Shown here: positions 58,114 to 61,983 of the stretch, piece after piece
Layout of the letters: the number at the start of each line of letters is the position of its first letter
Position numbering within the stretch: position 1 is the first letter of the stretch
DNA from: Varibaculum cambriense
GTDB taxonomy: Bacteria > Actinomycetota > Actinomycetes > Actinomycetales > Actinomycetaceae
DNA: 64,000 nucleotides
Direction: 5' to 3'
NCBI RefSeq assembly: GCF_022133705.1
Contig: NZ_JAKNHJ010000006.1
Location: 62,001 to 126,000, forward strand
Program-made: the position numbers and the translations under genes
The notes under the pieces: model-generated
Databases searched by the model: none
The model's input: only the letters and a program-made list of their open reading frames with translations
What the model was told of the DNA's origin: nothing

Positions 58114-58161
58114 GGGTAAGGGCGCATGACCCCCGTTAAGTTGACAAACAGGAAGGGTCCT

Positions 58162-59646
58162 ATGCGGATTGGTTTTGATTCTGAGCGTTATATTTCTTCA
58201 CAATCGCAACATATTGATGAACGTCGCCAGCAGATAGGTGGCAAGCTCTACCTGGAAATGGGGGGCAAACTTTTTGATGATTACCATGCGTCTCGGGTAC
58301 TACCGGGATTTACTCCCGATAACAAGATCTCTATGTTGGAGCGGCTACGCGATGAAATGGAAATCGTGGTTGCCATCAACGCGAAAGATCTCAACCGTCA
58401 AAAAATTCGCGCAGATTTAGGTATCCCCTATGAACAAGACGTTCTCCGCCTGGTAGACGTATTTCGCGAACGGGGCTTCCTGGTAGAAAACATTGTTTTA
58501 ACCCAGATGGAAGAAGATAACCACAACGCCAAGCTATTCAAAGAACGCCTAGAGCGTTCCGGTCTTAAAGTTGCCCGGCACTATACGATTCCCGGTTATC
58601 CCTCCAATACTGAGCTGATCGTTTCGGAGGACGGTTTCGGTCGCAATGACTATGTGGAAACTAGTCGCGATTTGGTAGTCGTGACTGCTCCGGGACCGGG
58701 TTCCGGAAAGCTAGCAACCTGCCTTTCTCAGATATACCACGAATATAAACGGGGCATAAAAGCTGGTTACGCCAAGTTTGAAACTTTTCCGATTTGGAAT
58801 CTTCCCCTCGATCATCCAGTGAATCTTGCCTATGAGGCCGCCACTGCTGACCTGGACGATGTCAATATGATCGATCCTTTCCACCTGCAGGCCTACGAAA
58901 AACAGGCGGTGAACTATAACCGGGATGTGGAAGTTTTTCCCTTGCTGCGCTCCCTGCTGCAACAACTAGCGGGCTCTTGCCCCTATCAATCGCCTACCGA
59001 TATGGGCGTCAATATGGCAGGCTTTTGTATCAGCGATGATTTAGTTTGTCAGGAAGCGGCTAAACAGGAAGTGGTACGCCGTTACTATCACGCCTTGGGT
59101 AATGAGGCAGCTACTCATGCCGAACCCATCGAATCGCATCGGATTGCCATGACCATGGCAAAACTAGGAATCACTAAAGAGTATCGTTACGTAGTCCGCC
59201 CAGCTTTGAACCTGGAGGCCGAAACTGAGGCTCCGGCGGCAGCGATGCAGCTAGGTGACGGACGCATTGTTACCGGTAAAACTTCTCCCCTGCTGGGTTG
59301 TTGCTCAGCGATGCTACTGAATGCCTTAAAGCTATTGGCCGGCATTGACGAGGAAGTGCAGCTGCTGGCGCCCTCTTCTATTAAGCCCATCCAAACCTTG
59401 AAAGTTGACCATTTGGGCGCGCGTAACCCCCGTTTACATACGGACGAGGTTTTAATTGCCCTGTCGGTTTCAGCAGATACTGATGAGAACGCACGCAAAG
59501 CGTTAGAAGAACTCGCTCACTTGCGAGATTGCGAAGTACATACCACCACTATTTTAGGTTCGGTTGACACCCAGATTTTCCGGAATTTGGGATTACAGGT
59601 AACTTCCGAGCCGGTTTATGCCCGCAAGACTCTATTTAAGAAATAG
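58162..59646 (+). CDS. DUF1846 domain-containing protein
   Basis: A 494-residue protein of the UPF0371/DUF1846 family, whose function is unknown. The N-terminus [18 protein letters not shown], the block [19 protein letters not shown] and [21 protein letters not shown] are characteristic of it. I take ATG 58162, preceded by AGGAAGG at 6 bases; an in-frame ATG at 58126 lies too close to the predicted transcript start. A P-loop-like GPGSGK suggests nucleotide or phosphate binding, by inference. It is convergent with pyrB across a shared strong terminator. Confidence 0.93.
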
Positions 59647-59735: not shown

Positions 59736-60776
59736 CTAGTCGTCGGGGGTTACTTTCCAGATCTTGTGTTTGGTTTTGGCTTGCACCAATTCTTTCCCGA
59801 CTCCCATCGTGGTCAGGAACATTGCCATCCGTACCAAGACCCCATTATCGGTTTGCTTAAAAATAGACAGCCCCGGTAGCTCATCCACATCGGTCGAGAG
59901 GTCAAGAGCGTTGGGGCGGGAATCTCGCGGCAATGGATGGCAGATAACAATGTCGTGGGCTCCGGCTTCCTCTAGCATCGCCTTATCTAGCAGGCACCCC
60001 TGCAATTCTTTCGACTTAGCCAGCTCTTCAGTCATCCGTTCGCGCTGCACCCGGGTCGCGTAAACCGTATCTGCGCCCTCCAAAGCCTCAATCTGGTTAT
60101 TGCAATCGATTACTCGCCCGCCTCGTGAAATCGCATACTCGGCGATTTCTCGGGGCAGCTCCAGGGAAGGCGGGGAGAATAGCCGGAAAGTCACCCCCTC
60201 ATACAAGCTCATCAATTTCATTAGAGAATGGACGGTACGCCCGTATTTCAGATCCCCCATAATCGCGATGGTGCATCCATCGAGAGATTTGCCGCGTTTA
60301 CCCAGTTCTTTGCGCATAGTAAACACATCTAGGAGGGCTTGAGACGGGTGCTCGCCAGAACCATCTCCGGCGTTAAGTACCGGTACCACCGAATGACGGG
60401 CGAATTCGGCTACCGAACCAGCATCAGGGTGGCGCACCACTAACACGTCGGTGAATCCGGAAACCACGCGGGAAGTATCGGCGATTGATTCGCCTTTAGC
60501 CATAGAAGAGAAAGTAAAACCGGTCGTGGTTTCTACTTCCCCGCCCAGCCGCAAGAAGGCGGATTCAAAAGATAGGCGGGTACGAGTCGAGGGCTCGAAG
60601 AATAGGGAACACAAAACGGCACCATCTAGCACCGTGCAGATTTGTTTCCGCTGCGCGACAGGACGCAAGAACTCGGCAAGATCGAAGAGTTCCCCCAGGT
60701 TTTCGCGATCAAATTGCCCAACCGAAATTAGGTGTTGTCCTACCCCGAAACGCGGGAAATCATAGTCTTCCGGCAT
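59736..60776 (-). CDS. pyrB: Aspartate carbamoyltransferase catalytic subunit
   Basis: It condenses carbamoyl phosphate and aspartate, the committed step of pyrimidine synthesis. The carbamoyl-phosphate motif FFEPSTRTRLSFESA is at about 59-73, with EHPSQALLDVFT and HPLPR further on. At 346 residues it is longer than the usual 305-315, with extra length spread over N- and C-termini. It starts with ATG at 60776 behind AAAGGG. No pyrI regulatory subunit follows. The leader contains an intrinsic terminator and two small reading frames, so expression is probably set by attenuation. Confidence 0.95.
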   Translation of the reverse strand: MPEDYDFPRFGVGQHLISVGQFDRENLGELFDLAEFLRPVAQRKQICTVLDGAVLCSLFFEPSTRTRLSFESAFLRLGGEVETTTGFTFSSMAKGESIADTSRVVSGFTDVLVVRHPDAGSVAEFARHSVVPVLNAGDGSGEHPSQALLDVFTMRKELGKRGKSLDGCTIAIMGDLKYGRTVHSLMKLMSLYEGVTFRLFSPPSLELPREIAEYAISRGGRVIDCNNQIEALEGADTVYATRVQRERMTEELAKSKELQGCLLDKAMLEEAGAHDIVICHPLPRDSRPNALDLSTDVDELPGLSIFKQTDNGVLVRMAMFLTTMGVGKELVQAKTKHKIWKVTPDD

Positions 60777-60885
60777 GCTTTTGCCCTTTCCAACTGAGTG
60801 TTTTTGATAAAAAAATGCCCCGCCGCAGCGGGGTGAAAATGGAAATAGAAACCTCAGGTAGTTGCCGCCACCGTCTGATTCCCAT
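60760..60885 (-). CDS. Putative pyrB leader peptide 2 (runs through the attenuator)
   Basis: A 41-codon frame from ATG 60885 to TGA at 60760-60762, ending 15-17 bases inside pyrB in a different frame. AGGAG lies 4 bases upstream of the ATG. It begins MGIRRWRQLP and continues EVSISIFTPLRRGIF. The codons before the hairpin are pyrimidine-rich (TCT ATT TCC ATT TTC ACC CCG). The terminator hairpin and its U7 tract lie within codons 18-26, so a ribosome translating it would disrupt the terminator. Coding status is inferred from position, not homology. Confidence 0.5.
   Translation of the reverse strand: MGIRRWRQLPEVSISIFTPLRRGIFLSKTLSWKGQKHAGRL
60809..60833 (-). terminator. Intrinsic terminator / attenuator in the pyrB leader
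   Basis: On the minus strand CCCCGC (60833-60828) and GCGGGG (60823-60818) form a 6-bp GC stem with a TGCG loop, and ATTTTTTT follows at once (U7 at 60815-60809). It ends 33 bases before the pyrB ATG and has no gene of its own to terminate, so it must act on pyrB leader transcripts. Confidence 0.85.
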
Positions 60886-60923
60886 CACGCTCCTAACGTT
60901 TTCCTGAAGGAAGAATAGCACAT
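60885..60923 (-). CDS. Putative pyrB leader peptide 1
   Basis: A 12-codon frame (MCYSSFRKTLGA) from ATG 60923 to TGA 60885-60887, with AGGAG at 60932-60936 and an ideal 8-base spacing. Its TGA overlaps the ATG of the second leader frame as TGATG, which predicts translational re-initiation. Codons 2-6 (TGC TAT TCT TCC TTC) are pyrimidine-rich. No protein homology can be claimed for a peptide this short. Confidence 0.5.
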   Translation of the reverse strand: MCYSSFRKTLGA

Positions 60924-61086
60924 GGTTACCTCTCCTAATACCTTTAAGCCCGATAGGGGGCAGCTTTTGTGTCCTCTTTCTCCTTACTAATTCCTATAAG
61001 GTGCCGCAGTACACACCCTCACAAATGGCTTTGCGCCAACTAAGCCTCCTAGAATCGAATGACGGTGAAAATCAAAGGGGGATGAT

Positions 61087-61983
61087 TTGAAGGGACTCAA
61101 TCGCTACTATCTGCAGTCTCTAGCAGTTTTAGCGCTGATACTAACCACCGCTTTTTGGGGTTCTACCTTTTTCCTGATCAAAGACCTGCTGACCACGATG
61201 ACCACCTTATCTTTTCTAGGGGTTAGGTTCGTGATCGCGGGAGCACTTTCGGCAGTGATATTTTTTCCTCGCTTAAAGAGGGCTAGCCGAAAAGTCTGGC
61301 AACATGCTTTTGCGCTAGGTGCAGTCTATTCCGCGGCGCAAGTCTTACAGACTAAAGGCTTAGAGAGTGCCGATGCCTCGGTGGTAGGTTTCATTACCGG
61401 CTTGTATGTAGTGATCACTCCCCTGCTAGTGTGGTTGCTTTTCAAAGAAAAAATTAAGCCAGTAAACCTAGCTGCTGCTCTGGTGGCGATGGCCGGATTA
61501 ATGGTTTTGAGTCTTGATGGATTCTCCATTGGTTTCGGGGAACTATTAACTCTGGCGGGAGCAGCTCTTTTTGCCCTCCACATCGTACTCACCGCTCGCT
61601 GGGCCGCCAAAGACGATCCCATAACTTTAGCTGCCATCCAATTAATCGCGATTGGTGTTTTCTGTTTTCTAGCGGCTCTGCCTTTTGGTCTGCAGTTACC
61701 CCAGGACGCTAGGCAGTGGACAGTGCTGCTTTACACGGTGGTGTTCGCAGCCATCGGAGCCTTAATCATGCAGACCTGGGCGCAAAAACACCTGCGTCCC
61801 ACTAAGGCAGCCGTAGTAATGACTATGGAACCGGTGTTCGCAGCGGCCTTTGCGGTTCTTTTTGGGGGCGAGGACGTGACCTCGCGAATGATCGTCGGGG
61901 GTTCCTTAGTAGTTGCGGCTATGCTTGCCACCGAGCTTATCCCCGCTTATCGCGCGCGCGATATGATCCGTGCCGGCGAATAA
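61087..61983 (+). CDS. DMT family transporter (two EamA domains)
   Basis: A 298-residue membrane protein with ten predicted helices in two EamA repeats. Signature features are AFWGSTFFLIKDLL near the N-terminus, GLYVVITPLLVWLLFKEK at the end of the first repeat and MTMEPVFAAAFAVLFGGE in the second. The start is TTG 61087, preceded by AAAGGGGG about 6 bases upstream; no in-frame ATG fits. It is divergent from pyrB, sharing a 310-base region. The substrate, perhaps a metabolite or amino acid, cannot be told from sequence. Confidence 0.88.
   Translation: MKGLNRYYLQSLAVLALILTTAFWGSTFFLIKDLLTTMTTLSFLGVRFVIAGALSAVIFFPRLKRASRKVWQHAFALGAVYSAAQVLQTKGLESADASVVGFITGLYVVITPLLVWLLFKEKIKPVNLAAALVAMAGLMVLSLDGFSIGFGELLTLAGAALFALHIVLTARWAAKDDPITLAAIQLIAIGVFCFLAALPFGLQLPQDARQWTVLLYTVVFAAIGALIMQTWAQKHLRPTKAAVVMTMEPVFAAAFAVLFGGEDVTSRMIVGGSLVVAAMLATELIPAYRARDMIRAGE

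Follow-up and report, generated by a model that had tools for sequence, protein, structure and literature searches.

Organization of the pyrB locus

The window, that is, the whole 64,000-nucleotide stretch of DNA that we analyzed, comes from the 2.2 Mb genome of Varibaculum cambriense and carries a gene for the catalytic chain of aspartate carbamoyltransferase, pyrB, which scores 275 bits against the TIGR00670 model (cut-off 237). No partner gene accompanies pyrB. A DUF1846 gene (58126-59646, plus strand) lies tail to tail with it, and a transporter gene is divergent upstream. The features of the locus are as follows:

59736..60776, minus strand: pyrB, aspartate carbamoyltransferase catalytic chain, 346 aa (Pfam PF02729/PF00185; NCBIfam TIGR00670)
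60760..60885, minus strand: probable leader peptide frame of 41 codons that spans the terminator and stops 17 nt into pyrB (open in 7/7 leaders)
60809..60833, minus strand: predicted intrinsic terminator (putative attenuator), a 6-bp GC hairpin at 60833-60818 plus U7 at 60815-60809 (fold, scan, conservation)
60834..60863, minus strand: pyrimidine-rich stretch leading up to the hairpin, a candidate pause region for RNA polymerase (composition)
60890..60894, minus strand: putative ribosome-binding site AGGAG, 4 nt before the leader ATG (conservation)
60912..60920, minus strand: putative extended -10 element, TGC-TATTCT (conserved block, sister-genus match)
60885..60923, minus strand: a 12-codon frame (ATG 60923, TGA 60887-60885), rejected as a leader peptide
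61087-61983, plus strand: EamA transporter gene, upstream of pyrB and divergent from it

The first-pass annotation had read this leader as two coupled short frames with a terminator inside the second, and both frames, their TGA/ATG overlap, the hairpin, the U7 tract and the pyrB ATG at 60776 are all where it placed them. We refer below to the 12-codon frame as the first frame and to the 41-codon frame as the second or leader frame.

The gene is 99% identical to its counterpart in V. cambriense DSM 15806, and the same pyrB is found in all six Varibaculum genomes examined (G000, which contains the window, to G005). These six represent the genus in what follows, and a single genome, G038, represents a sister genus; among the matches listed its pyrB is 81% identical, and by eye it has a DUF1846 neighbor as in the genus. 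A pyrB match at E ≤ 1e-30 is present in 173 of 200 family genomes, and outside Varibaculum and the sister genus these show 33–45% identity among the matches listed. The nearest relatives outside the group are carried by Propionibacteriaceae (59–72% identity). Within the window, pyrB is set apart from the nusB-pyrC-pyrF cluster, in which pyrC (11996-10698) and pyrF (10688-9819) follow efp and nusB (names from the translations; pyrC by TIGR00857).

Two further elements were noticed in the window. A strong hairpin, GTATGGGACCCAAGATTTGGGTCCCATAC, sits at 9401-9373, after pyrF and at the listed start of a gmk-like ORF, whose true start is probably downstream of the listed one. Between the divergent EamA gene and pyrB, at about 61018-61000, the motif GTGTGTACT-N3-GCACC is kept in all six genus genomes and may belong to an operator or to the promoter of the EamA gene.

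A putative terminator kept in place before pyrB

The hairpin before pyrB (CCCCGC-TGCG-GCGGGG) folds at -14 kcal/mol, with a z-score of -2.56 relative to shuffled sequences. Taken alone, a hairpin with a U tract is weak evidence, because the surrounding 3.5 kb contain 10 terminator-like sites, compared with 4.1 +/- 2.1 in shuffles. The better evidence that this sequence may act as a terminator is its kept position before pyrB: the hairpin is present, with 5–9 pairs, in all seven leaders (six from the genus plus G038). One C-G pair is T-A in the sister genus, a change on both sides, and the outer pairs show single breaks in the V. cambriense leader and in G004; these pairs were counted after aligning the leaders by hand, as MAFFT had put the sister-genus arm in the wrong place. 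The terminator before pyrB in the window does not serve an upstream gene, since the genes on its two sides diverge and it is oriented toward pyrB. The leader as a whole folds no better than shuffles (z -0.28), and the predicted minimum-energy folds of the seven leaders reveal no shared competing structure.

To place the element within a wider sample, we scanned the 230 nt upstream of pyrB for terminator-like sites in 106 stretches (in L043 and L046 the available upstream sequence is shorter than this, and in L014-L036 the gene starts were estimated from the match). Eight have one, namely the seven leaders of the group and a single other, L018 from genome G034, so that 98 of the 99 other pyrB upstream regions are without such a terminator. 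A further 11 family upstream regions, from 10 new genomes (L178 is the same place as L019), also yielded no terminator; pyr operons that include PyrR, the type of most of the family, are represented here by few genomes. No terminator was found either in the 36 other actinobacterial relatives of this pyrB (L040-L076 without L053), all but one of them titled as Propionibacteriaceae genera or family, or in 40 betaproteobacterial relatives (L077-L116). Because these 36 and 40 relatives are without the terminator, we place the putative attenuator on the Varibaculum side rather than in the donor-like lineage of the gene itself, and the same absence favors an origin separate from that of the enterobacterial leader.

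The one exception seems to be of a different kind. The operon of G034 reads by eye as pyrB-I-C-F-K-D-E. Immediately ahead of its pyrB (L176 6020-5795, minus strand) is an AU-rich terminator of 13 bp, and a short frame has its stop codon within the left arm; the arrangement resembles pyrE-type attenuation under ribosome control.

A probable leader peptide frame with a conserved start signal

The start of the second frame is conserved in every genome of the genus. Both the ribosome site, TTAGGAGMGTGATG, and the ATG at 60885 are kept in 6/6 genomes, and the sister-genus counterpart of the former is AAGGAAACCTATG. From this ATG the frame stays open past the U tract in all seven leaders, compared with four and three of the seven for the other two frames. 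Counted from the pyrB start, its end falls at -1 to +37, and in six of the seven it overlaps pyrB by 14–37 nt. Openness alone arises in 29–69% of shuffles of the four leaders tested, and because open frames are so common there, the case for this frame rests on its start signal, layout and position. On these grounds, the frame 60885-60760 is probably a leader peptide. The peptide sequence itself is unconstrained, since the variable columns are evenly spread over the three codon positions (8/9/8). An absence of selection on the peptide fits a frame of the pyrL kind, and it also fits a frame that is not read.

Attenuation through the codons of a particular amino acid was considered and rejected. 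No conserved codon run was seen in the seven leader frames, and the arginine codons of V. cambriense and its close relatives are mostly not retained in G004.

The G038 leader shares few letters with those of Varibaculum upstream of the hairpin, and nevertheless retains every part: a -10-like element, AAGGA, an ATG, a 59-codon frame that ends 14 nt inside pyrB, a 9-bp hairpin and U7. With a tRNA gene and an ORF preceding this leader on the same strand, the role of the terminator is less clear from context in G038 than in the window. The same genome contains, at C3:7699-10001, a second pair of genes resembling a carbamoyltransferase and a dihydroorotase, the former with a stop codon inside the match and the latter below the family cut-off. 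In the whole G038 genome no carA was found above the family cut-off, though pyrB, pyrC, pyrD and pyrE were.

A likely extended -10 promoter and rejected upstream elements

Conservation in the genus alignment has an upstream boundary. Just upstream of the block TRTGCTATTSTT, which is conserved in 6/6 genomes, 6 of 60 columns are invariant; the two steps that follow, with TTCAGG and TTAGGAGMGTGATG, have 16 invariant columns of 20 each, and further downstream the hairpin and U tract are conserved as well. A consensus scan of the leader region found no -35/-10 pair. Given the boundary, the TGC-TATTCT sequence and the presence in G038 of TGTTATAGT at the place matching the -10 block, transcription likely starts near A60905 from an extended -10 promoter.

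The elements that the first-pass annotation had proposed further upstream do not hold up in the relatives. Its first frame has an ATG in place in two of the six genus genomes (V. cambriense itself and G001). In G004 and G005 the ATG is two bases further on and in another frame, and G002 and G003 have no ATG there. One extra base in the pyrimidine run shifts the frame in G002-G005, which instead have a 9-codon frame (start ATG in G004/G005, GTG in G002/G003) ending in TAG 10 nt before the second ATG. Because neither the start nor the reading frame nor the ribosome site of the first frame is conserved, and because this frame shares positions with the likely -10 element, we rejected it as a leader peptide. 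The TGCCCC that had been proposed as an antiterminator is present at 60962-60957 (minus strand); it lacks conservation and would sit some 50 nt ahead of where the transcript is predicted to start, outside the RNA. In the relatives, the second frame and the hairpin are kept, the latter with one pair changed on both sides, and the first frame is not.

The pyrimidine-rich stretch

The 30 nucleotides just before the hairpin contain 20 pyrimidines, and the 22 that precede them in the frame contain 7. Across the genus the shares are 63–67% before the hairpin and 32–36% earlier, a contrast that is modest (p 0.013-0.05) and comes from six related sequences. The sister genus shows it more strongly, with 25/30 (83%) versus 18/50 (36%; p 3.3e-5). 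In E. coli pyrL, by comparison, the tract has 80% pyrimidines versus 53% before it. Among the strong terminators found for comparison in 84 kb, which number only six, the one before pyrB has the highest pyrimidine share.

PyrR and known RNA families

The regulator expected in this family was not found in the group. PyrR (NF003549, E ≤ 1e-30) is present in 148 of 200 family genomes and in 0/7 of G000-G005 plus G038, and looser E-values returned only weak phosphoribosyltransferase matches below the cut-off, in G005 and G038. In G007, PyrR is directly before pyrB, and in other actinobacteria pyrR, pyrB, pyrC, carA, carB and pyrF occur together. PyrR control of pyrB in Varibaculum is unlikely because the protein was not found in the genus, and we rejected it on the count of 0/7. 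The model of the PyrR-binding RNA (RF00515) also has no match in the V. cambriense genome, a weak null result because the same model misses one of its controls, Corynebacterium glutamicum, which has PyrR, and may therefore overlook actinobacterial sites. A known RNA family was likewise rejected for the leaders, where no Rfam family reaches threshold and only sub-threshold matches occur. The layout of the leader, its conservation and the failure to find PyrR are direct observations.

A related leader at carA

A survey of carA (loci obtained for 30 of 35 matches) revealed a terminator of 11 pairs, 76–105 nt upstream of the match start, in 6/6 genus genomes and in none of the 24 other upstream regions. 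All 66 of its cells are paired, with no two-sided changes. The V. cambriense copy lies at:

G000:C23 (L160), about 7530-7432, minus strand: own carA leader (same arrangement in G001-G005)

A conserved TATNNT, similar to a -10 element, stands 8 nt before GTGAAACTCTTA, and a GTG frame of 24–30 codons is open through the hairpin in 6/6 genomes, ending 4–23 nt before the carA ATG; such a frame is open in 69–72% of shuffles of three leaders. The GTG is one nucleotide from the predicted transcript start, which leaves no room for a ribosome-binding site, so its initiation would have to be leaderless. A second hairpin lies after the terminator and before the ribosome site. Counted on a gapped alignment, two of its pairs are changed on both sides and three are broken in 2–4 of the six genomes. 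The V. cambriense carA terminator has no pyrimidine contrast (0.50, difference 0.03), which speaks against a pause mechanism common to pyrB and carA. The carA leader is a related one and possibly a variant of that at pyrB.

No comparable arrangement was found at the remaining genes of the pathway that were scanned. Upstream of pyrE there is a terminator-like site in 0/7 genomes; upstream of pyrC there are weak sites 172–192 nt from the match in 4/7, and upstream of pyrD a single site in 1/7, none of the same kind.

A model of attenuation and its alternatives

We judge it fairly probable that pyrB, which is probably the gene controlled by the putative attenuator, is regulated by transcription attenuation as in E. 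coli pyrBI, dependent on coupling between polymerase and ribosome. Where the first-pass annotation likened the second frame, the hairpin and the pyrimidine tract to a pyrBI-type attenuator, it is borne out to this extent by two genera and by the likeness to E. coli pyrL. To this arrangement we infer a promoter, leader translation, polymerase pausing and sensing of UTP. Transcription would start near 60905 at the extended -10 promoter, giving a leader RNA with one peptide frame (ATG 60885) through the terminator at 60833-60809. When UTP is plentiful, the polymerase would cross the pyrimidine stretch without delay and outrun the first ribosome; the hairpin could then form, and transcription would stop some 30 nt ahead of pyrB. 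Under UTP shortage, the polymerase would pause at the pyrimidine stretch, allowing the ribosome to catch up and cover the left arm of the hairpin, with read-through into pyrB. Such a mechanism would require neither an alternative hairpin nor a stall codon. We lowered our estimate slightly because carA lacks the pyrimidine contrast and because the PyrR RNA model misses an actinobacterial genome used as a control.

The strongest alternative is a regulatory terminator set by an RNA-binding protein or a ligand-binding RNA in place of a translating ribosome. Attenuators of the PyrR type work without ribosomes in many bacteria, and the two-sided changes in the second carA hairpin count in its favor, although three pairs of that hairpin are broken in some of the genomes. 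The results for PyrR and for Rfam families stand against it, as does, weakly, that for RF00515. In addition, about 70 nt separate the predicted start from the hairpin, with no conserved structure seen there, and the conserved ribosome site and start codon would be left unexplained. We therefore regard this alternative as improbable.

Somewhat less probable again is an unregulated, partial terminator that merely lowers pyrB expression. A hairpin of only 5–9 pairs would suit such a role. Against this, hairpin, ribosome site and frame are kept in two genera despite changed letters, a related arrangement exists at carA in the same genus, and the scans of pyrE, pyrC and pyrD show that terminator-like sites are absent, or weak and far upstream, or isolated at other genes of the pathway.

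Translational coupling, in which ribosomes that end near the pyrB start re-initiate there and the hairpin is incidental, would account for a frame end so close to that start, and re-initiation after leader genes has been proposed for bacteria including actinobacteria (PMC4833913). The frame end is not fixed across the genus, however; pyrB keeps its own purine-rich stretch, GGAAAGGRC, throughout; and the hairpin and U tract would go unexplained, making this a very unlikely account. Least credible of all are two coupled short frames with a TGCCCC antiterminator: the window does contain both frames with their TGATG overlap, and a different 9-codon frame occupies the same place in G002-G005, but four of six genus genomes lack the ATG, the ribosome site and the reading frame of the first frame, and the unconserved TGCCCC, like the first frame, lies at or upstream of the likely promoter.

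Returning to attenuation of the pyrBI kind, a broader scenario is conceivable, although we consider it doubtful: that PyrR was lost and that a small ribosome-coupled attenuator regulon took shape at the two opening steps of the pathway, pyrB (pyrL-like) and carAB (leaderless GTG), the first 50 nucleotides of the RNA being enough for coupling to be judged. If the pyrBI-type reading holds, the E. coli design would have arisen again in Actinobacteria, the phylum in which predicted intrinsic terminators are at a minimum (PMC2965389), and in a family where PyrR is common. A regulator protein would have been replaced by a coupling sensor after exchange of its target gene, and the genus would offer a natural test of close RNA polymerase-ribosome coupling in an actinobacterium.

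Comparison with known systems

The E. coli pyrBI leader (MG1655 b4246-b4245; L168) consists of TATAAT, a short 5′ end, GGAGG and the 44-codon pyrL, with a GC hairpin, U8 and a frame end 3 nt before pyrB. It has in common with Varibaculum, where the promoter parts are predicted, a -10 element, a short 5′ end, a purine-rich ribosome site, an ATG, a pyrimidine stretch, a GC hairpin and a U tract, as well as a promoter close upstream and a single frame of about 40 codons that ends near the pyrB start. By eye there is no sequence similarity between the leaders. Unlike E. coli, Varibaculum is actinobacterial, has no pyrI after pyrB, and has a weaker pyrimidine tract in the genus, and the frame of the Varibaculum group overlaps pyrB in 6/7 leaders instead of ending before it. 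In E. coli, tight coupling across pyrL is described as needed to prevent the terminator (PMC5021804), and normal UTP is described as leaving the terminator unrepressed, the coupling being set by pausing sites (PMC4824070).

The carA leader of Pseudomonas aeruginosa resembles that of Varibaculum in having a leader peptide with proposed attenuation and pyrimidine control (PMC4997734); it differs in that the Varibaculum frame would start, with GTG, one nucleotide from the predicted transcript start. The PyrR-dependent pyr operons serve the same pathway in the same family, and most sampled Actinomycetaceae genomes carry PyrR, whereas Varibaculum has no detected PyrR and keeps pyrB apart from nusB-pyrC-pyrF. 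At the E. coli rph-pyrE attenuator, too, read-through into a pyr gene depends on where the ribosome stands by a terminator hairpin. The frame there is a full gene ending before the hairpin, unlike the short Varibaculum leader frame, which runs through it; the L018 leader of G034 looks closer to this type. Among the titles and abstract openings listed by searches of open-access papers, none reports a pyrBI-type attenuator in Actinobacteria. The pyrBI design is already known, and the Varibaculum pyrB leader, with a possible variant at carA, looks like a separate origin of it in a group without detectable PyrR.
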